Assembly: GCF_003614435.1 (NCBI RefSeq) | Contig: NZ_CP025550.1 | Coordinates: 1 to 17,187 of the forward strand | Reading direction: 5' to 3' | Length of the DNA: 17,187 bases | DNA from: Mycobacterium paragordonae | Lineage (GTDB): Bacteria > Actinomycetota > Actinomycetes > Mycobacteriales > Mycobacteriaceae | Made by a program: the position numbers and the translations under genes | Shown: piece by piece, positions 7,172-15,333 of the stretch | Numbering within the stretch: position 1 is the stretch's first letter | Layout: each line of letters opens with the position of its first letter | Notes under the pieces: model-generated | The model's database searches: none | The model's input: the letters and a program-made list of their open reading frames with translations, nothing else | Told to the model about the DNA's origin: nothing

Positions 7172-7327
7172 GTGATGACAACGTGGCGGGACGCGATCAA
7201 GGGATGGCTTCATGAAAAGACCCGGACGAGCGGCGATGTGCTGGCACCGTCTGCTGCTGCATTAACCCTCTACTGGTCGCCAAAGGGCTGGCAACTCCTC
7301 ACCGTTAGCCCGTGGTGGCAGCAGTGA
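7172..7327 (+). CDS. 51-residue protein with a coupling-protein-like tail
   Basis: The start is the GTG at 7172, or the ATG at 7175, with a strong AAGGAG ribosome site at 7160-7165. It begins 23 nt after the coupling protein stop, so it is probably in the same operon. The last 18 residues (YWSPKGWQLLTVSPWWQQ) match the coupling protein end (YYGPGGWDLITLNPWWSQ) at 10 of 18 positions, including GW, PWW and the final Q. The first 30 residues (TTWRDAIKGWLHEKTRTSG) are unrelated and hydrophilic. It could be a remnant of a duplicated 3' end or a small partner that competes with the ATPase tail. The strong ribosome site and intact frame favour a real gene. Confidence 0.65.
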   Translation: MMTTWRDAIKGWLHEKTRTSGDVLAPSAAALTLYWSPKGWQLLTVSPWWQQ

Positions 7328-7369
7328 AAGACATACGGGCTCTAGCCCTAAAGAAAGGAAAGTCGCACG

Positions 7370-7816
7370 ATGGCAGGCCAGCGACAATGGGTGGTGCATC
7401 CGAACCGTTCGGAACCCGGACCGGACGAGCCCGGCCGCAACGGGCACTTCCGCGCCGAGGCGCGGACACGGAAACCTGTCCCGTCATCGACGTGTCGGGC
7501 TCGGGTTGAGTTGCCGCAGGAGTTGTTACACCTAGCCGACCCGGATGGAGCCGTGACTTTCGGCGGCTACGACTGGTCGTTTGTCGTCGGTGCAGCCCAC
7601 ACCTTTGCTCGCCTGCGCACCGAGGTGGAGGTTCCGCCGCCGTTCGGGTTCAAGTTCAAACGAAACGGGCCGTGGCACTGGTGGGACGGGACGACCACCG
7701 CGGCGTCGATCCTCGAAGGTGCCGACGCCGCCGAGCGGGTGCGCCCGTTCCTGGAGCAGTTGTTCCCAGGGGCGCAAATCAAGCTGACCGATCTGCGATA
7801 TGGCCGTTCGGAGTGA
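7370..7816 (+). CDS. Hypothetical protein, 148 residues
   Basis: The ATG at 7370 has an AAAGGAAAG ribosome site about 8 nt upstream, and the gene starts 42 nt after the preceding small gene, so it may close the transfer operon. The first 45 residues are charged and Pro/Arg-rich. Residues 50-148 look like a folded domain with aromatic clusters (GGYDWSFVVGAA and GPWHWWDGTTTAASILEG) and an amphipathic helix (AAERVRPFLEQLFPGAQ). There is no signal peptide or membrane segment. I do not recognise a family. Its stop is 58 nt before the first 116-bp repeat, so it marks the left border of the cassette region. Confidence 0.7.
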   Translation: MAGQRQWVVHPNRSEPGPDEPGRNGHFRAEARTRKPVPSSTCRARVELPQELLHLADPDGAVTFGGYDWSFVVGAAHTFARLRTEVEVPPPFGFKFKRNGPWHWWDGTTTAASILEGADAAERVRPFLEQLFPGAQIKLTDLRYGRSE

Positions 7817-7874
7817 CCCGTTTCGGGAGCAACGATGTTCCCACGCCCAAATGTGCCCACAACCATGCGTCTTC

Positions 7875-7990
7875 AACCGCCCAGTCGGTCCGAGGGGATT
7901 TGGCACACGTGGGGGCTCCCGCCCGACCCGTGCCGGGTCGGTTGGGTCTGAACCTGTCGTACCCGGCTAGCAGAATCAGGGCATGGACGC
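7875..7990 (+). repeat. 116-bp repeat, copy A (left arm of inverted pair)
   Basis: All 116 bases are the exact reverse complement of 11173-11288. The repeat contains the palindrome CCGACCCGTGCCGGGTCGG (7923-7941), probably the binding site of a protein such as the resolvase, and ends with ATGGACGC, the start of the following small gene. Sequence outside the repeat (about 7834-7874) is still recognisably related to the flank of copy B but has diverged. It probably holds the promoter and recombination site of the cassette. Confidence 0.95.
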
Positions 7991-8354
7991 CAAGAACGAG
8001 TTGTGCGACATTTTGCGCGCCCGCGGAACCGCCTTTGTATTTCGTCCGCTAGTGACGCACCACGAAGGTGTCTGGCGCGCAAGGTATCCCGGCGCTGAGT
8101 GGTCAGTTTCGGGGAACACTCGTGACGAGGCGGCTTCGCGGCTCCGTGACCGCGCGCTAAGCGGCCTTACCGCCGGGGAGAATCGGCGCTGGGAGGATGC
8201 CGCGATCCAGGCGGCCATTGAGCACGGCCCGCTGCCCGGGGTGTACGAGATTCCCATGAGCGAGCATGAGGCCATCATGGCTAGCGCCGACCCGCAGGCG
8301 GCGCTAGACGCCGCGCTGGCTGTGATCGACGCTCAGCGCGAGCGCCGCCAATGA
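7983..8354 (+). CDS. Small HicB-like protein upstream of a resolvase remnant
   Basis: The protein has 123 residues. The ATG and first codons lie inside repeat copy A, and there is no ribosome site directly before it, so a leaderless mRNA is possible. Residues 28-60 (GVWRARYPGAEWSVSGNTRD then EAASRLRDRAL) follow the strand-strand-helix pattern of HicB-type antitoxins, in which a short W/P-containing strand is followed by G-x-T-x-x-EA and a helix. The C-terminal part is helical (PQAALDAALAVIDAQRERRQ). The stop overlaps the ATG of the resolvase remnant (ATGA), as the 53-residue gene does with the intact resolvase on the other side. No HicA-type toxin is adjacent. The HicB likeness is a weak pattern call. 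Confidence 0.6.
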   Translation: MDAKNELCDILRARGTAFVFRPLVTHHEGVWRARYPGAEWSVSGNTRDEAASRLRDRALSGLTAGENRRWEDAAIQAAIEHGPLPGVYEIPMSEHEAIMASADPQAALDAALAVIDAQRERRQ

Positions 8355-8530
8355 GTGTGCTCGGCTATGCGCGGGTGTCGACCGCGCATCAAAGTGTCGA
8401 TATGCACGTGCACCGCCTCGAACAAGCGCGGCGCTACATACGCGCGAGTATCATTCGCTCCCTTGGTATTTCACGATCCTTTGGTATTTCACGGTCCAGC
8501 GTGTACCGATCCTTGTCTTCCGCACGCGCC
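8351..8530 (+). pseudogene. Serine resolvase with internal deletion
   Basis: The reading frame begins MSVLGYARVSTAHQ, matching the N-terminus and catalytic serine loop of the intact resolvase at 10474-11022. After about 25 residues it jumps straight to the C-terminal helix-turn-helix (IRASIIRSLGISRS, then SSVYRSL). About 130 residues, including the conserved arginines and the dimer helix, are missing, so it cannot recombine DNA alone. An 18-bp tandem duplication (8462-8479 and 8480-8497, 16 of 18 equal) repeats LGISRS as FGISRS inside the recognition helix region. The normal stop is lost and the frame runs on to 8773. Confidence 0.85.
8462..8497 (+). repeat. 18-bp tandem duplication in the resolvase remnant
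   Basis: CTTGGTATTTCACGATCC is followed directly by TTTGGTATTTCACGGTCC. The unit is exactly six codons, so the frame is kept. Slippage in a decaying gene is the simplest origin. Confidence 0.85.
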
Positions 8531-8587
8531 CCAGAGCGCGTGTCTATACGATCCGGCGGAGCAAAAGTATCTCCAAGGAAGGGCATC

Positions 8588-8773
8588 ATGACGTGGTTGT
8601 ATGACCGGCAATTCGAGTTGATGGCCGAACGGTGGCGTAACGACAATCCTGGGCAGGAGCTTGACGACAAGATCATCGACACTCTGCGCATCCAGGCACG
8701 CATGATTGTCGATGACATCAAGCGTTCGCAGTACCTAGAAGAAGTGCAGTTTCTGTATCCCAGCGGCGACTAA
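8588..8773 (+). CDS. Small hypothetical protein, 61 residues
   Basis: The ATG at 8588 has an AAGGAAGGG ribosome site just upstream, so it is a better start than the read-through from the resolvase remnant that shares its frame. The protein (MTWLYDRQFELMAERWRNDN, continuing to IIDTLRIQARMIVDDIKRSQ) is charged and mostly helical, with no membrane segment. It takes the place held by an antitoxin gene behind the other resolvase sequences here, so it may be the cargo of this cassette. I do not recognise a family. Confidence 0.55.
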   Translation: MTWLYDRQFELMAERWRNDNPGQELDDKIIDTLRIQARMIVDDIKRSQYLEEVQFLYPSGD

Positions 8774-8785
8774 CTGCGCCCGAGA

Positions 8786-8824
8786 TTCGGACCCAACCGA
8801 CCCGGCAGGGGTCGGGCGGAAGCC
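8786..8824 (-). repeat. Degenerate partial copy C of the 116-bp repeat
   Basis: This 39-bp stretch equals 11211-11249 of copy B at 36 positions and has the same orientation. It keeps the two halves of the palindromic core (CCGACCC and GGGTCGG). It sits just after the stop of the 61-residue gene, in a 189-bp gap with no gene. Confidence 0.8.
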
Positions 8825-8962
8825 ATCGTATTGCCAAAGCGCGCCGCGCATCGGGCGGGGTCGATTTTAGGGGTTGGCTTTGGTCTGGGTGTTTTGGTGG
8901 GCCTCTTCGCGAGGTTACGTAGGAGGGCACGGAGCCCGTGGCGGCAGGTCGCAGCGGCTGAG

Positions 8963-9397
8963 TCAGGTGTCGAGGTTGTCCAGTGATTCTTCCTGTTCAG
9001 CGCTGGTTTGTGTGAGCTTCCAGGTGTCCCACGCGTCCAGAGTTGTGATCTGGTCGGGGTCAGCGGCACTGATGACGGCGTATTCGTTGGTCTGCGTAGC
9101 ATTTTGAGGGAAGATGACCTGTTCGCCCTCGACTGTCGCACCTTCGGTGCATAGCGAGCGCGGGAGGCATGCGGCGATGTCGAATACCGGTCCGGTGCCG
9201 ATGATTTGGCGGAACCACAGCAACGGTTCTGCCGGTTCAAGGCGCACTGTGCGGGCGATAGGCTGGCGATACACCATGGTGTTGGTGGCGCGGTCGAAGA
9301 CTTGCACCTGGGCGCCGCCGGTCGCTGGCCCATCAGGGTCGAACCCCTGGGCGCATAACCGTTCAACGGTGTTAAGCCAAGCGTTGCCGCCGTTCAC
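8963..9397 (-). CDS. Hypothetical protein, 144 residues
   Basis: The GTG at 9397 has a purine-rich stretch (GGAGAAAGTGGGG) ending about 8 nt upstream. The protein is acidic towards its end (SAEQEESLDNLDT) and has a mixed, probably globular core with PLLWFRQIIGTGPVFDIAA and a pair of cysteines (residues about 77 and 83). There is no signal peptide, membrane segment or motif I can name. It is the last gene of the minus-strand run below the HicB-like gene. A short fragment of the repeat (9458-9471) lies about 60 nt upstream of its start. It may be cassette cargo. Confidence 0.6.
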   Translation of the reverse strand: MNGGNAWLNTVERLCAQGFDPDGPATGGAQVQVFDRATNTMVYRQPIARTVRLEPAEPLLWFRQIIGTGPVFDIAACLPRSLCTEGATVEGEQVIFPQNATQTNEYAVISAADPDQITTLDAWDTWKLTQTSAEQEESLDNLDT

Positions 9398-9457
9398 TTA
9401 GACACCCCACTTTCTCCACCCGCTGGTGGGACTTCTTCATCGCCGGAATTGTCCCAG

Positions 9458-9471
9458 CCCGGTACGACAGG
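9458..9471 (-). repeat. Short fragment D of the 116-bp repeat
   Basis: GTACGACAGG (9462-9471) is identical to 11201-11210, and an ATG lies at nearly the same distance below it (9440 here, 11180 in copy B). That ATG opens only a 22-codon frame. The match is short and is called mainly on its position and spacing. Confidence 0.45.
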
Positions 9472-9510
9472 CCGGACGAACACAAACGCCGTGCGACTTT
9501 TGTTCGGCTT

Positions 9511-9732
9511 TCAACTTCGGCCCGGTAATTCGACTTGAACGTCGAAGGAGTCCTGAGAAACTTCGAGACACAGCGCGATCAGCTCCCGTGCCATCGGTTC
9601 GATGTCGCTGAGTTTGCGGGCTTGTGTGTAGATGCCATCTTCGGGATTGTGGCCGAGGCCGGGGACGCGGATGAGCCACCAGCGTCCGTCGCGACTGGCG
9701 AGCGCGGTGTACGTGGGCCGACCGACGACCAT
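9511..9732 (-). CDS. HicB-like orphan antitoxin
   Basis: The protein has 73 residues. YTALASRDGRWWLIRVPGLG followed by YTQARKLSDIEPMARELIAL is the compact actinobacterial HicB-like pattern: a strand, DGRWW, a second strand with VPG, then T-x-A-R-x-L and a helix. Such proteins neutralise a HicA-type mRNA interferase or act as small regulators. No HicA-like gene lies next to it. The ATG at 9732 overlaps the TGA of the resolvase fragment by one base, and a TTG at 9735 is an alternative start. The coupling to a resolvase end is the same arrangement as for the AbiEi gene nearby. Confidence 0.72.
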   Translation of the reverse strand: MVVGRPTYTALASRDGRWWLIRVPGLGHNPEDGIYTQARKLSDIEPMARELIALCLEVSQDSFDVQVELPGRS

Positions 9733-9815
9733 CAACCCACCAACGCCTGGTACACACTGGGTCGCGAAATATCAAGGGAACGAGCGATACTCGCGCGTGT
9801 AGCGCCGCTCTGGTG
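9732..9815 (-). pseudogene. C-terminal fragment of a serine resolvase
   Basis: On the minus strand the sequence encodes SGATRASIARSLDISRPSVY and ALVG before a stop, matching the last residues of the intact resolvase (GGATRSSIARSLGISRSSVY then RVLVP). Only the helix-turn-helix is left. The fragment starts right below the AbiEi gene stop (9818) and runs into the HicB-like start. It has no start of its own and is a relic of a third resolvase. Confidence 0.85.
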
Positions 9816-9817
9816 GA

Positions 9818-10477
9818 TCATTTGGACCGACAGGCGGCGGCGGTGAATAGTTGGGCGAGTTCAACACCGCCGGAAGTCCCCCACCGGTGCGCGTAGGGAT
9901 CGAGGCGGCGGCCGACTTCTTCCATCGTGAGCAATCCGTCTTCAATGATGTCGGCGATCACCGTTCCTTGATGGGACCCGTCAATCTCAGCGTCGGCCAG
10001 ATCAGCGACGATACGCCCCGGCATCGCGACCGGAAGTCCTTCGAAGACATCCCATTCCACGCCGCAGGCACCGATGTCACGCAAATAGGTGTGCACCTGT
10101 GGGGTCTTGTTGATGGGGCGGGGGCCGGTGAGGTAGAGACCGTCAGCAACGACCGTCCCCAAGTCGCGGATCACTGCCGCGCTTTCGTGGCTGAGGATGC
10201 AATCTGGGGCGGCGCGGCGGGCGTCGATGTCTGCGGCGGGTTTGAGCGCTAGCCATCGGGCTGCCCAGTCCTCGAACCTGAACATGTCGGCGTCGTTCTC
10301 GGTGAACCCGAATACGCCGCGATACGCCTCATACAGTTCGCCCCAGGCGAGACGTTGCGCTAGCTCCAACTTAGAAAGCCCGCCCCGCCGGGCCTGGGCT
10401 GCGGTGAACAGACCGAACTGACGTGCCGCCAGATGGTGCATTCCATCCCAACCCCAGGTCTCGCCGGCTATGATCAC
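9818..10477 (-). CDS. AbiEi-family antitoxin/regulator
   Basis: The protein has 219 residues from the GTG at 10477, which overlaps the resolvase stop (GTGA). Residues 21-57 (QFGLFTAAQARRGGLSKLEL, then LAWGELYEAYRGVFGF) are the N-terminal winged helix of type IV AbiEi antitoxins. The following domain has the family signature ILSHESAAVIRDLGTVVADG, then YLTGPRP and GLPVAMPGRIVADLADAEI. AbiEi proteins repress their own operon and counter an AbiEii nucleotidyltransferase toxin. No AbiEii homologue is present, so this is an orphan acting as regulator or as an antidote to a toxin elsewhere. The frame is open far upstream within the resolvase gene, but that part is only the resolvase read in another frame. 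Confidence 0.82.
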   Translation of the reverse strand: MIIAGETWGWDGMHHLAARQFGLFTAAQARRGGLSKLELAQRLAWGELYEAYRGVFGFTENDADMFRFEDWAARWLALKPAADIDARRAAPDCILSHESAAVIRDLGTVVADGLYLTGPRPINKTPQVHTYLRDIGACGVEWDVFEGLPVAMPGRIVADLADAEIDGSHQGTVIADIIEDGLLTMEEVGRRLDPYAHRWGTSGGVELAQLFTAAACRSK

Positions 10478-11022
10478 GGCACCAATACCCGGTACACGCT
10501 GGACCGTGAGATACCCAGGGAGCGGGCGATACTCGAGCGTGTAGCGCCGCCCTTGTCGAGGCGGTGCACGGCATCGACTGTCGCGGCGGGCAGCTTGGGC
10601 CGTCCAGGCAGCCGCCCGGCCGCACGCGCGGCCGCCACCCCGGCCGCCGACCGCTCCGACGCCAGCGCCCGCTCGAACTGGGCCACCGCGGCGAAAACAT
10701 GAAAGACCAGGCGGCCACCCGCGGTCGCGGTGTCGAGGGTTTCGGTCAGCGAGCGCAGCTCGATTCCTCGTTCCTCGAGGTCGGCAACCACGCTCAGCAG
10801 GTGCGGCAGCGACCGGCCGAGCCGGTCCAGTCGCCACACCGCCAACACGTCCCCAGCGCGGGCGTAGTCCAGGAGCGCGGCCAGCTCCGGCCGATCATCT
10901 CGGCCACCCGACATCTGCTCAGTCCAAATACGTTCAGCACCCGCCATTTTCAGCGCATTAATCTGCATGTCGAGGTTCTGGTGTGCCGTCGAGACGCGGG
11001 CATACCCAAGAACAGCGCTCAC
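10474..11022 (-). CDS. Serine resolvase/invertase (intact)
   Basis: The protein has 182 residues, the usual size of a small serine recombinase. It starts at GTG 11022, overlapping the preceding stop by 4 nt. GYARVSTAHQNLDMQ holds the catalytic S11 and R9. WRLDRLGRS at 63-71 provides R64, R67 and R70. FAAVAQFERALASER is the start of the long dimerisation helix. GGATRSSIARSLGISRSSVY at 158-177 is the C-terminal helix-turn-helix. Enzymes of this type resolve plasmid multimers or invert segments at paired sites. The nearest likely sites are the 116-bp repeats: copy B lies just upstream of the operon, and copy A lies inverted 3.3 kb away. Two broken relatives are in the same region. Confidence 0.93.
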   Translation of the reverse strand: MSAVLGYARVSTAHQNLDMQINALKMAGAERIWTEQMSGGRDDRPELAALLDYARAGDVLAVWRLDRLGRSLPHLLSVVADLEERGIELRSLTETLDTATAGGRLVFHVFAAVAQFERALASERSAAGVAAARAAGRLPGRPKLPAATVDAVHRLDKGGATRSSIARSLGISRSSVYRVLVP

Positions 11023-11180
11023 CAGAGGTCGTCGTCCCGCTCACGCAGAGGTCCGCCGCCTCTGTGAGCGGCCGCCAGATTCGCCGTGAAATCGCGATAC
11101 GCCGCGCGGCGTTCCTCATCGCTCGCGTAATCAGCGCCGTAGTGCTCTAGCCAAGCGTGCCAAAGGCCCCCAGCGTCCAT
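11019..11180 (-). CDS. 53-residue protein starting inside repeat copy B
   Basis: The ATG lies within the 116-bp repeat at the same position as in copy A. After three shared residues (MDA) the two proteins are unrelated. The sequence is MDAGGLWHAWLEHYGADYAS then DEERRAAYRDFTANLAAAHR with an acidic end (RERDDDLW), mostly helical. Its TGA overlaps the resolvase GTG start, so it probably feeds ribosomes into the resolvase gene. It may be a leader protein or a cut-down cassette protein. I know no family for it. Confidence 0.6.
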   Translation of the reverse strand: MDAGGLWHAWLEHYGADYASDEERRAAYRDFTANLAAAHRGGGPLRERDDDLW

Positions 11181-11288
11181 GCCCTGATTCTGCTAGCCGG
11201 GTACGACAGGTTCAGACCCAACCGACCCGGCACGGGTCGGGCGGGAGCCCCCACGTGTGCCAAATCCCCTCGGACCGACTGGGCGGTT
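11173..11288 (-). repeat. 116-bp repeat, copy B (right arm of inverted pair)
   Basis: This is the exact reverse complement of 7875-7990. It is the promoter-side sequence of the 53-residue/resolvase/AbiEi operon and carries the palindromic core at 11222-11240. Beyond 11288 the flank (to about 11327) resembles the flank of copy A, with shared CGATGTTCC, ATGT and ACAAC blocks, but with many changes. Confidence 0.95.
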
Positions 11289-11436
11289 CTGGAACACAGT
11301 TGTGGAACATGCGGCGGGGAACATCGCTGCACGTCACCGCTAATGGGCGAAAGTGTCGCAATAACAACCGATTAAGACACAGCCGTGATTTTATCTGTGG
11401 GGGCTTGTTCGCTGGCGTTGTGCGCGTCGAGCCGGG

Positions 11437-12396
11437 TCATACGGCGAGGTCCAGTGGAAGGTCTGCGATGTCTTTGAGGCGTTTGCCCTGGATCATCATG
11501 TCAAGCAGTTCCTTGGTGTCCTCGCCGCCTTCGGCGCGTACGGCGGAGACCAACTCCGGTAGGGCGAAGTGGTAGACGCAGTCGATGTCTCCGGTGCCCA
11601 GTGCCAGCGACGAGATGCGCACCGGAGTTGGTTCGCCGGTCACGACGACCACGTGGGGTAGACGACCTTTGCGGTTACGGATGAGGTTGAGAGCTTCGCT
11701 GCGGGCGTTCTGTGCTCGGTCGCTTCGTAGGGTCCACTTACACGACACCACAGCGTGTAGGAGGGGATTGGGTTGCACTGATGTTCGGAGCGAGGCGTGG
11801 GTCGCGACAGTCTCGTCGACGAGGAACCGGTGGGCGTTGATTTCGTCGTCGCTGACCGTCGCCCTGGAGACGACGACGTCCGGGGCGATTGCGTAGGCGT
11901 TGCCCAGGATGGCCGCCAGTGACGGGTTGTTCTCGACGGCGTCGGCGAGGTCGACCAGGTGTGAGTACTGCTCGTAGCGTGCTACGCCGGAGGCTGCGCC
12001 GCGGCTCGGGACCTTGTGGATGGACCACTCTCCTGGCCGCAGGTGCCCGAGTTGGTTGAACGCCGCCGCCAGGAAGGTTGCGCATGCTTCTTCAAACTTG
12101 CCGCCGGAAGTCTGCCCGGCGGCGCGCTCGCGTTCGGTCTCGACTTTCAATGCCGCTGCGATGTGGGCGGCAATGCTGCGGCTCAGGGGGCTGCTGCGGT
12201 CGGCGTTGCTGGCTATCCCATCGGCGCCGACCGACAGTGTCCCGCCGAGTAGTAGTCCGGCGTGGAACTGGGACCGCTGTTCTGCGAAGTACGCTTCGGC
12301 CGGGCTACCCGCTTCCATCACCGCGGCACCGAGTGTGGGGCTGCCTCCCGCCACCGGGTAGTCCTGCGACAGGACCGGTTCGAGGTCACGCGACAT
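11437..12396 (-). CDS. Type II restriction endonuclease, NgoMIV family
   Basis: The protein has 319 residues from the ATG at 12396. A TTG at 12447 and an ATG at 12318 are alternatives; 12318 gives a length closest to NgoMIV as I remember it (286 residues). GQTSGGKFEEA, IAPDVVVSR (D173), VSCKWTLRSDRAQNARSEAL (S218, K220), NLIRNRKGRLPHVVVVTGEP and ALGTGDIDCVYHFAL match NgoMIV closely along the chain. The D to K spacing of 47 agrees with the active site I recall for NgoMIV (D140, S185, K187). NgoMIV cuts GCCGGC as a tetramer, and I infer the same target here. The gene start overlaps the methyltransferase end, so the two are co-transcribed with the methyltransferase first. Confidence 0.92.
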   Translation of the reverse strand: MSRDLEPVLSQDYPVAGGSPTLGAAVMEAGSPAEAYFAEQRSQFHAGLLLGGTLSVGADGIASNADRSSPLSRSIAAHIAAALKVETERERAAGQTSGGKFEEACATFLAAAFNQLGHLRPGEWSIHKVPSRGAASGVARYEQYSHLVDLADAVENNPSLAAILGNAYAIAPDVVVSRATVSDDEINAHRFLVDETVATHASLRTSVQPNPLLHAVVSCKWTLRSDRAQNARSEALNLIRNRKGRLPHVVVVTGEPTPVRISSLALGTGDIDCVYHFALPELVSAVRAEGGEDTKELLDMMIQGKRLKDIADLPLDLAV

Positions 12397-13528
12397 CCGG
12401 CACGGCCGCCAGATGCCGTGCACGTCGGGGCCGTCGTCGGGCACCAAGATATGGTTTCAGGTGCTCTGCGATGGCGTGGGCGAGGCCGACGGGGACGGCG
12501 TTGCCGATCTGCTTGGCGATCCCGATCTTGGAGCCGCACCAGCGGAAGCTGTCGGGGAAGCCTTGTAGTCGGGCGGCCTCAAGGTGGGTGATCGGCCGGT
12601 TGACCCGGCGGGTGCGGTCGTCAGCATCCCACTGCGGGTGGAGGTACTGGCCTTTCTCGGGCTTGAAGAACTCGGTGCGAATCGTCAGAGATGGTGCGTC
12701 CCAGTGCATGCGCCCCATGACGTCGGTGGTGCCGGTGGGCTTATTGAGCCAGCAATCGGGAAGCAGCTCGTCGGGCAGATCGAAGCGGCCGCCGCCCGGG
12801 GGAATGCAGTCGTAGCGCAGCAGCGACTTCGCAGTAGGGCGCCGGCCGAGGTGGAGGTCGTCGCCGGTGAACAGGCCGGGTACATCGTTGCCGTCGAAGC
12901 GCCACACACGATCCGGAAGTACATGATCGCGGGTCGCCTCCGGAATGCCGGCGAGGGCGTCGCGCACGGTGCGCCAGGGTATGAGCCCGCCAGCGCCGCC
13001 GCGGGCGTGTGTCGGTTCGGGTAGATGAACCAGGCCGACGCGCGAGCCGATGACGATGGTGCGGTTACGCCGCTGGGAAACACCGAAGTCGGCGGCGTTG
13101 AGCACACCGTAGGAAAGGCTGTAGTCCTGCAAGGCGGCGCCGTCGCCAACGGTCCCTTGCAGGGCCTCGAACTCGGCACTGGTCAAGAAGCGGTCGACGT
13201 TCTCGATGACGAAAATCTTCGGTTTGGCGCGCACCACTACCCGTAGGTACTCCTGCCACAACTTGTTCCGAGGATCGGAGTCATTTCTGCTACCGAGGTT
13301 AGAGAATCCCTGACACGGGGGTCCACCGATGACCACGTCGGCACGAGGAACGTCGCGGTCGTGCAGCGTGCCGATGTCGCCACAGTAGGTGTGATCGGCC
13401 CCGAAGTTGGCGGCGTAGGTCGCCGCTGCCTGCAAATCCCACTCGACCGACAAGATGGGGTCATAACCTGCGGAAACGAAGCCAGCAGTCATCCCGCCGC
13501 AACCGGAAAACAGGTCAATGATCTTCAT
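12386..13528 (-). CDS. DNA (cytosine-5) methyltransferase of the restriction-modification system
   Basis: The protein has 380 residues. The ATG at 13528 has a strong GGAGGAG ribosome site 7 nt upstream. Motif I is DLFSGCGG (5-12), motif IV is GGPPCQGFS (68-76, catalytic C72), motif VI is ENV (109-111), motif VIII is QRRNR (152-156), and motif X is KQIGNAVPV (about 339-347). The variable region between VIII and IX, which reads the target, spans about 165-310. It would protect GCCGGC from the partner endonuclease. Gene order and overlap ensure that methylation is made first. The upstream gap of 134 bp to the divergent vsr gene contains a TTGACC on the minus strand (13584-13589), a possible -35 box, but no well-spaced -10 box. 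Confidence 0.95.
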   Translation of the reverse strand: MKIIDLFSGCGGMTAGFVSAGYDPILSVEWDLQAAATYAANFGADHTYCGDIGTLHDRDVPRADVVIGGPPCQGFSNLGSRNDSDPRNKLWQEYLRVVVRAKPKIFVIENVDRFLTSAEFEALQGTVGDGAALQDYSLSYGVLNAADFGVSQRRNRTIVIGSRVGLVHLPEPTHARGGAGGLIPWRTVRDALAGIPEATRDHVLPDRVWRFDGNDVPGLFTGDDLHLGRRPTAKSLLRYDCIPPGGGRFDLPDELLPDCWLNKPTGTTDVMGRMHWDAPSLTIRTEFFKPEKGQYLHPQWDADDRTRRVNRPITHLEAARLQGFPDSFRWCGSKIGIAKQIGNAVPVGLAHAIAEHLKPYLGARRRPRRARHLAAVPDVA

Positions 13529-13662
13529 TCACAACTCCTCCCGCTCCCGCGCTCGCCGCTGCGACTCTACAGTCGAACTGGACGGTCAATGCGCTGGCTC
13601 ACCCGGTTATCGAGAGACGAATTTCGTCGTGCGGAGCCGAAAACGAAGGAGCTGAATGCAAC

Positions 13663-14181
13663 GTGCCTCTTATCCCGTCGTCAGATGTCGCCGCCGCGTT
13701 TGTTGCGCTGCAGCCCGCGCCGGGGGCCGTCTCCGAAAACACCGCTTCTCCCGCGCTTAGCCAACTTCCTCTGCCCCCTACGCCGAGCACCCAGCGGCGG
13801 CTCAGTGCGCAACGGCGCCGCGATACTGCCCCGGAAATCGCGGTGCGGCGGGAGCTGCACCGCCGGGGCCACCGCTTCTACGTCGACCGCGCACCCCTGG
13901 CAGGTCTACGGCGACGTGCCGATCTGTTGTTCCCGCGGCGCAAGGTCGCGGTCTACGTCGACGGCTGTTTCTGGCACTGCTGTCCATGGCACGCCACCCA
14001 CCCGAAACGTAACGCCGACTGGTGGGCCGCAAAGCTGGCCACCAATGTCGCCCGAGATCGGGACACCGACGCCCGCCTCGCCGCCGCTGGATGGATAACT
14101 GTGCGGGTGTGGGAGCACCAGCATTTCGTGGAGGCCGCCGACCTCGTCGAACAAGCCCTGAGAACCTCGCGGAGTTCATGA
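13663..14181 (+). CDS. vsr: Very short patch repair (Vsr) endonuclease
   Basis: The protein has 172 residues from a GTG at 13663, with AAGGAG 11 nt upstream. After a 48-residue Pro/Ser/Ala-rich extension the Vsr family core begins: RRRDTAPEIAVRRELHRRGH, PLAGLRRRADLLF, VAVYVDGCFWHCCPW (catalytic D100), HPKRNADWWAAKL, NVARDRDTD and GWITVRVWEHQHF. Vsr enzymes nick beside T:G mismatches made when 5-methylcytosine deaminates, and so protect methylated sites from mutating. Its place next to a C5 methyltransferase fits this role, here probably for methylated GCCGGC. It is divergent from the methyltransferase. The long N-terminal extension is unusual; a later start is possible but no better ribosome site is seen. 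Confidence 0.92.
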   Translation: MPLIPSSDVAAAFVALQPAPGAVSENTASPALSQLPLPPTPSTQRRLSAQRRRDTAPEIAVRRELHRRGHRFYVDRAPLAGLRRRADLLFPRRKVAVYVDGCFWHCCPWHATHPKRNADWWAAKLATNVARDRDTDARLAAAGWITVRVWEHQHFVEAADLVEQALRTSRSS

Positions 14182-14740: not shown

Positions 14741-15333
14741 GCGCGGGGCTCCTGGGTGGCGGCGATTAGTTCGGCGTAGACATCGGTGTAGTCCCACAAG
14801 CGGGTTGGGAGTGTGCCGAACGCTTCGGTGATGGCTTGTCGCCGCCGGATGACGGTGCGAAGGACTGGCGCGCCTTCGGCGGCCAGGTGCTCGGGTACGC
14901 CGGTGGCGAGCGCTGTTCGGAGGTCGATGCCAGTGAGCAGAATGGCGGTCGCGCGGTGAGTTGTCATGTCGAGTGTCGGCCAGACCCGATCAATGTCGGC
15001 GGGTGCTGCCCCGCTGGGGATGATCACGAGGTCGGCGGCGTCGATGGCGGCGTCGATCACGGCGGCGGTGCCTGGTGGGGTATCGACCACCACCAGGCCC
15101 CCCGATCCGGTCGCGGCGGCCGCGGCGAGGTCGGCCGCCGCGACCGGGACCACGGGAAACGGCAGCGGTGTTCCTCGGTGTTCGGCGCGGTCAGCCCATG
15201 AGGACGCGGAGCCTTGCGGGTCGGCGTCCAACAGCAGCACTTCGTGGCCTTGCGCTGCGGCCGCGCAGGCGAGAAAAACACTGGTGGTGGTTTTTCCAAC
15301 GCCACCTTTGGTGTGGACCAGGGAAAGGATCAT
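14737..15333 (-). CDS. parA: ParA-family partition ATPase
   Basis: The protein has 198 residues from the ATG at 15333 ([11 protein letters not shown]). An ATG at 15345 would add four residues. KGGVGKTT at 9-16 is the deviant Walker A motif with the signature lysine, [12 protein letters not shown] is the Walker A' region, and VVVDTPPG is Walker B. It has no N-terminal helix-turn-helix, so it is the short ParA type usually paired with an RHH partner, which represses the operon in its place. It forms ATP-dependent patterns on the nucleoid that move plasmid copies apart. It overlaps the RHH gene by 4 nt. No good ribosome site is seen, which fits a leaderless or short-leader mRNA. Confidence 0.93.

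Follow-up and report, generated by a model that had tools for sequence, protein, structure and literature searches.

In resolution systems of the Tn3/gamma-delta type, the crossover site is the part of res that lies farthest from the resolvase gene. The hix sites of the DNA invertases are 26 base pairs (bp) long, according to excerpts of PMC3798978. In Wolbachia, insertion sequence (IS) elements are reported to have been inverted by recombination between their terminal inverted repeats at 9% of the loci studied (abstract of PMC3004938). Here we analyze a sequence of 17,187 bp, in the following called the window, which is the whole of contig C5 (NZ_CP025550.1) of Mycobacterium paragordonae, whose genome of 7.2 Mb comes in five contigs. 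The window carries two perfect inverted repeats of 116 bp, the arms, which face each other across a serine recombinase gene. Since genes for a relaxase, a VirD4-type protein, ParA and a recombinase are present, the contig is apparently a plasmid. An earlier note on this DNA had proposed that the arms form an inversion switch. In our view they are probably two facing copies of the control unit of a resolvase operon, of which the right one belongs to an operon for multimer resolution and which owe their identity to general recombination. We therefore describe the locus as a mosaic resolvase island with a hairpin–promoter unit and not as a demonstrated switch.

The nearest relatives of the window plasmid are mostly mycobacterial. 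Nine loci with a VirD4 relative were examined: the window, L008 (M. kansasii), L009 (Mycolicibacterium iranicum), L010 (Mycolicibacterium tusciae), L011 (a metagenome-assembled genome), L012 (Mycobacterium sp.), L023 (Mycolicibacillus parakoreensis), L064 and L065. The arms, their parts and the recombinase operon of the window are as follows.

7829–7913, plus strand: outer region of the left copy, counterpart of the right accessory region, without a crossover site.
7875–7990, plus strand: left arm, in which putative accessory-site sequence is followed by a hairpin, a promoter-like motif and the start codon (ATG) of a gene for 123 amino acids.
7914–7951, plus strand: conserved core hairpin, left copy.
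7955–7976, plus strand: promoter-like motif TGTCGTAC-N8-CAGAAT, left copy, with an ATG 6 nucleotides (nt) further on and a predicted leaderless start.
10474–11022, minus strand: intact serine recombinase of 182 amino acids (Pfam Resolvase, 7.8e-42, and HTH_7).
11019–11180, minus strand: protein of 53 amino acids, which starts in the right arm and overlaps the recombinase start; relatives lie beside cores in L009, L012, L023 and L065.
11173–11288, minus strand: right arm, with the same content as the left; downstream of it follow two genes, the second being the intact recombinase.
11187–11208, minus strand: promoter-like sequence motif, right copy.
11212–11249, minus strand: conserved core hairpin, right copy.
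11250–11335, minus strand: probable accessory sites for the resolvase, on the stretch separating the core from the candidate crossover site; the part 11289–11335 has relatives in other plasmids.
11354–11379, no strand assigned: candidate crossover site, an imperfect palindrome of 26 bp, which is the only strong match that the window contains and is located 65 nt outside the right arm.

The exact, facing repeats reported in the earlier note are confirmed. The arms are reverse complements of each other over 116 nt with a mismatch at the next base at either end, and 3,182 nt separate them. As the longest exact inverted match in 10 mononucleotide shuffles was 16–18 nt, chance is excluded. Similarly, the sharp edge of identity with diverged sequence beyond it holds up: outside the arms related sequence goes on for about 46 bases (7829–7874 versus 11289–11330), and 33 of 36 aligned bases match there, with several short gaps. 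At its inner edge the repeat ends 8 nt inside two unrelated genes, which have only the start ATGGACGC in common. In both arms an inward-facing gene has its start codon; the left arm leads into a deleted recombinase relic and the right arm into the intact serine recombinase, which the note had rightly placed between them. Apart from the two arms and a partial third copy, the arm sequence was found at no other place in the genome (search with E up to 0.001).

Crossover sites were searched with a half-site model built on four relatives (L009, L011, L012 and L023; lengths of 24–28 bp), the window being excluded. This model replaced a strict TGTC-N20-GACA palindrome, which near a core had matched the L011 site only and nothing in the window. 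On the window the half-site model scores 33.2 at 11354–11379; the best scores of 30 mononucleotide shuffles average 9.1 and do not exceed 15.2. Around the left arm (7729–8090) no crossover-like site was found, the best score being 5.7, although a very diverged site could escape such a model-based search. L008 (31.7) and L064 (23.7), which had no part in building the model, also have one strong crossover-like site each. The same holds for the four model-building relatives, where the matches arise by construction. Thus, a single strong site is found in seven of the eight plasmids or contigs with two cores, four of these seven having built the model. In L010 there is no clear crossover site, the best score being 17.7 at position 812, far from the cores, with 12.7 of 23.4 kb scanned; the contig of L009 was likewise scanned in part.

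As the site of the window is located 65 nt outside the right arm, the arms themselves are probably not crossover sites. This bears on the switch, in which the recombinase would recombine the arms and flip the 3.2 kb segment, a reading that we consider quite improbable. It is tempting, since the arms are perfectly inverted and the recombinase is closest to the DNA invertases among solved structures. However, the only strong crossover-like site lies outside the arms and adjoins only the right one, no such palindrome having been found around the left arm, so that a resolvase-driven inversion is unlikely. Multimer resolution needs one site per plasmid and one strong site is seen; single-site resolution therefore fits better than inversion. 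There would also be little to switch. The same promoter-like motif points inward from both arms and the genes outside both arms read toward them, so that a flip, with the swap of outer flanks imagined in the earlier note, would be expected to change little.

We suggest that the unit is organized from outside to inside as probable accessory sites, conserved hairpin, leaderless promoter-like motif and start codon. The right unit would be complete, with crossover site, accessory sites, hairpin, promoter, the gene for 53 amino acids and the recombinase, and most likely serves to resolve plasmid multimers; an intact serine recombinase gene with one strong crossover-like site near its operon is what we find. 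We take Ser11 of the recombinase to be the catalytic serine. The left unit, which has no crossover-like site and whose recombinase is deleted, probably arrived with a second resolvase operon captured from a relative. The identity over 116 bp could then stem from gene conversion, from homologous recombination or from recent copying of one unit, presumably with no part played by the recombinase.

The hairpin and its short flanks, together called the core, recur in the relatives. In eight of the nine virD4-bearing loci at least two cores are present, the outermost pair facing inward around the recombinase gene; the ninth, L065, has one core. Counts over eight plasmids given here omit L065, single-core and core-less loci, and duplicate records were set aside (L061, L062 and L063 are the contigs of L011, L009 and L012; L029 is a rotated form of L008). 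A relaxase relative accompanies seven of the eight two-core loci and was not seen in L009, where a contig end is nearby. In L008, L009 and L010 the virD4 stop codon coincides with one core copy, and in L011 and L064 one copy is at most about 10 bases from that codon. Among 30 sources, 11 have a single core, and in 9 of these 11 a recombinase relative starts at most 35 nt downstream of it. In an alignment of 15 copies from the window and seven related loci, the short flanks around the hairpin are almost invariant, 98.1% of the cells of the 11-pair stem can pair and two of the 11 pairs show double changes. Neither the covariation score nor the percentage paired was reached by any of 500 shuffles. 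The cores of L027, L067, L072 and L073 fall outside the pattern used for hairpin extraction and have no energy value.

A strict pattern of the core is rare. It matches 2 of 401 genomes drawn from the family and 9 of 329 drawn from the genus, the host's own genome being counted in each, and a core covariance model under restricted scoring finds matches in 13 of the 401, the weak ones probably by chance. With the strict pattern a scan of IMG/VR gave no match, and nothing in phage records matched 7820–8000. A search of the window against Rfam left the core unmatched, its sole match (15113–15141) being weak and unrelated.

On the inner side of the core the motif TGTCNTAC-N8-NAGRAT occurs eight times in 11 plasmid or contig sequences, each time directly after a core. 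In seven of the eight cases an ATG follows at 6–8 nt; in copy L012a the distance to the first ATG is 1 nt. The motif looks like a leaderless promoter. On the outer side of the cores the sequence contains TGTC motifs and probably represents resolvase accessory sites, and the hairpin between the two is perhaps a transcription terminator and boundary. The motif TGTCGTAC-N8-CAGAAT presumably resembles the consensus of the promoter RecA-NDp. RecA-NDp is a DNA-damage promoter activated by PafBC (excerpts of PMC6789036, PMC8223512, PMC2897130 and PMC3968373).

If the two copies in a plasmid exchange sequence, they should be more alike than copies paired at random. We scored each core pair of the eight plasmids against all re-pairings. 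The similarity within plasmids is 277 compared with a mean of 225.9 for the re-pairings, and 18 of 40,320 permutations score as high; with the L023 copies in the other order the mean is 227.8 and again 18 are as high. In four of the eight plasmids the own partner of a core ranks first (window, L008, L012 with a tie, and L023). A within-plasmid signal is thus present and it leans on few pairs. It supports exchange between the arms, probably by homologous recombination, although gene conversion, homologous recombination and recent re-duplication would each produce such likeness. The recent exchange put forward in the earlier note is supported, with a signal that fades as pairs are dropped; site-specific inversion by the resolvase is not supported.

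The direction of the recombinase differs among the relatives. It reads toward virD4 in three of the eight plasmids (window, L008 and L064) and away from it in five (L009, L010, L011, L012 and L023), and the recombinases of the window and of L011, which are sisters (95/89), run in opposite directions. For the switch this is a point in favor. However, the close pairs, window/L008 (by VirD4) and L009/L010, share their direction, and the two M. kansasii records are the same sequence up to rotation. The comparison of orientations called for in the earlier note therefore yields both directions among the relatives, yet agreement within the closest pairs and different genes between the cores.

Alternatively, general recombination between the identical arms could flip the island now and then, so that its orientation drifts without regulation. 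We hold this to be possible but rather doubtful. The arms are identical over 116 bp, the directions differ, the layout of L009 to L011 is as an inversion between cores would give, and the Wolbachia IS elements, as reported in the abstract of PMC3004938, offer a precedent for inversion between terminal inverted repeats. Since the direction varies among the eight, rare homologous inversion over evolutionary time is conceivable. Against it, no close pair differs in direction, the gene content between the cores varies and the direction may reflect replacement of the resolvase operon. When the segments between the cores were compared, the recombinase was reversed along with certain further stretches, but there was no clean inversion of a whole segment with shared cargo.

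Several observations weigh against the multimer-resolution reading and its parts. The recombinase is nearer to the Gin DNA invertase (9.5e-46), its nearest solved sequence, than to gamma-delta resolvase (2.4e-31), and the 26 bp of the candidate site equal the length of hix. In L009, L010 and L011 the core next to the recombinase is the one remote from the accessory sites, a layout that inversion would account for. The candidate crossover site is 26 bp long in most plasmids but 28 bp in L011 and 24 bp in L023, and the threshold is not clean: the scores of L010 (17.7), L065 (15.9, its third hit), L066 (15.6) and L027 (15.5) are just over the shuffle maximum, and for this reason we counted only scores above 20 as sites. 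The exchange signal falls to 18 of 5,040 permutations without the window, to 18 of 720 when L023 is left out too and to 16 of 120 when L012 is also dropped, and the own partner ranks second in L064 and between fourth and sixth in L009, L010 and L011. As to the hairpin, the shuffles match its double-change pairs in 137 of 500 cases and its pair types in 446 of 500, eight of the 11 stem pairs do not vary and related sequences inflate the shuffle control. The core hairpins have no T-run, and terminator function is therefore a guess. The promoter-like motif is found in only 8 of 28 cores. Finally, no core was obtained from 8 of the 30 sources, although seven of these have a recombinase 69–80% identical (L013, L014, L068–L071 and L074), so that the core is not obligatory.

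Further features of the island, and one beside it, are as follows.

7268–7345, plus strand: second virD4 3′-end fragment, past the intact virD4 stop, 82% to the Mycolicibacterium iranicum contig.
7983–8354, plus strand: protein of 123 amino acids, function not assigned, starting in the left arm; a relative in L011 has 46%.
8351–8516, plus strand: internally deleted resolvase relic, in which helix-turn-helix pieces from the C terminus come after an N-terminal piece.
8588–8773, plus strand: small open reading frame (MTWLYDRQ...), ending at the third core.
8783–8824, minus strand: third core, diverged (90%), 9 nt past the stop of the small open reading frame; the decayed resolvase lies between it and the left arm.
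9722–9817, minus strand: remains of the 3′ end of yet another resolvase gene, 76% to 10464–10559.
9818–10447, minus strand: AbiEi-type antitoxin-like gene (PDLC02231, 2.7e-54; PF13338 below its cut-off), flanked by two resolvase 3′ ends.

The third core and the two resolvase remnants go beyond the earlier note. A direct repeat of 96 bp (76%) from the resolvase 3′ end, 9722–9817 and 10464–10559, brackets the AbiEi-type gene, and the arrangement looks as if the resolvase gene had taken up this cargo at its 3′ end. The recombinase of the window groups with that of L011 (95/89) and VirD4 with that of L008 (100/100). From this discordance and the fragments of other lineages we conclude that the plasmid was probably assembled from several relatives.

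Inverted repeats around a recombinase and cargo that recur in several plasmids might also be the ends of a transposon. We rejected this as highly unlikely. The five open reading frames between the arms which were scanned with Pfam contain no transposase (the small one at 8588–8773 and antisense frames were outside the scan), one copy stays at or near the virD4 stop in L008 to L011 and L064 instead of varying its target, and elsewhere a lone core precedes the recombinase. Least likely of all is an error in assembling the plasmid. Long exact repeats are prone to misassembly, but the arms differ in their outer flanks and inner genes, and the paired layout, less identical, occurs in seven other plasmids or contigs, including the M. 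kansasii plasmid recorded twice identically.

Among the papers listed by the literature searches, judged by titles and abstract openings and with few subscription journals, none dealt with paired hairpin–promoter units. More speculatively, and with rather low odds, the unit could be a dedicated boundary element of plasmids: an inward-facing pair around an island of recombinase and cargo, kept alike by repeated recombination, within which the island would invert and defence cargo be exchanged between plasmids while the outer transfer genes stay insulated. The promoter might answer DNA damage and couple resolvase and cargo to stress. If inversion or insulation were true, the locus would illustrate how plasmids of this kind exchange defence genes and leave their transfer genes undisturbed. 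On the reading that we favor, with two control units of resolvase operons, a tempting interpretation of a perfect inverted repeat beside a recombinase is corrected, as the repeat is probably not a recombination site. A compact unit of putative accessory sites, hairpin and leaderless promoter-like motif recurs in small mycobacterial plasmids, and its inverted copies inside one plasmid seem to evolve together.

Beside the island, 11437–14181 encodes an NgoMIV-type restriction enzyme (Pfam, 1.7e-116), a cytosine methyltransferase and a Vsr-type endonuclease; in the related M. kansasii plasmid a XamI-type enzyme is annotated in place of the NgoMIV-type. Two distinct serine recombinase genes, oriented oppositely, occur in the plasmids L024, L025 and L027 and in contig C4 of the M. 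paragordonae genome (L078), with metal-resistance genes between the two in L024 and L027. An identical perfect palindrome of 26 bp at L024:9843 and L090:13270, about 115 nt upstream of a second recombinase type (about 42% identical to the recombinase of the window), is perhaps the crossover site of that type. L065, a contig of 2.1 Mb, has a broken virD4, one core, a recombinase and two crossover-like sites in direct order, L065:363 and L065:9923, 9.56 kb apart; it is possibly an integrated or tandem plasmid.

How does the locus compare with known systems? Like the IS elements described in the abstract of PMC3004938, it has inverted copies that could exchange sequence or invert by homologous recombination. 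Unlike those, the copies would be operon control regions and not transposon ends, and inversion is only a possibility here. With the Hin and Gin segments it shares a small serine recombinase, nearest to Gin, and a site length equal to that of hix (excerpts of PMC3798978). It differs in having one strong crossover-like site instead of two inverted ones at the segment ends; the arms, of 116 bp, appear to hold control sequence, and no flip of a promoter is apparent. In mycobacterial plasmids of the pMM23/pMAB23 type a relative of the recombinase (74%) lies directly downstream of one core copy; unlike the window plasmid these have a single core, no inverted pair and a backbone with a MobF relaxase. 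From Tn3 and gamma-delta the locus departs in several respects: the candidate crossover site is 26 bp long in most relatives, the recombinase is nearer to Gin, the site is separated from the recombinase by a hairpin with a promoter-like motif and by a small gene, and no transposase is seen. With their res and serine resolvase (excerpts of PMC9943657) it nevertheless has in common a crossover palindrome farthest from the gene, TGTC-containing sequence between and the recombinase downstream.

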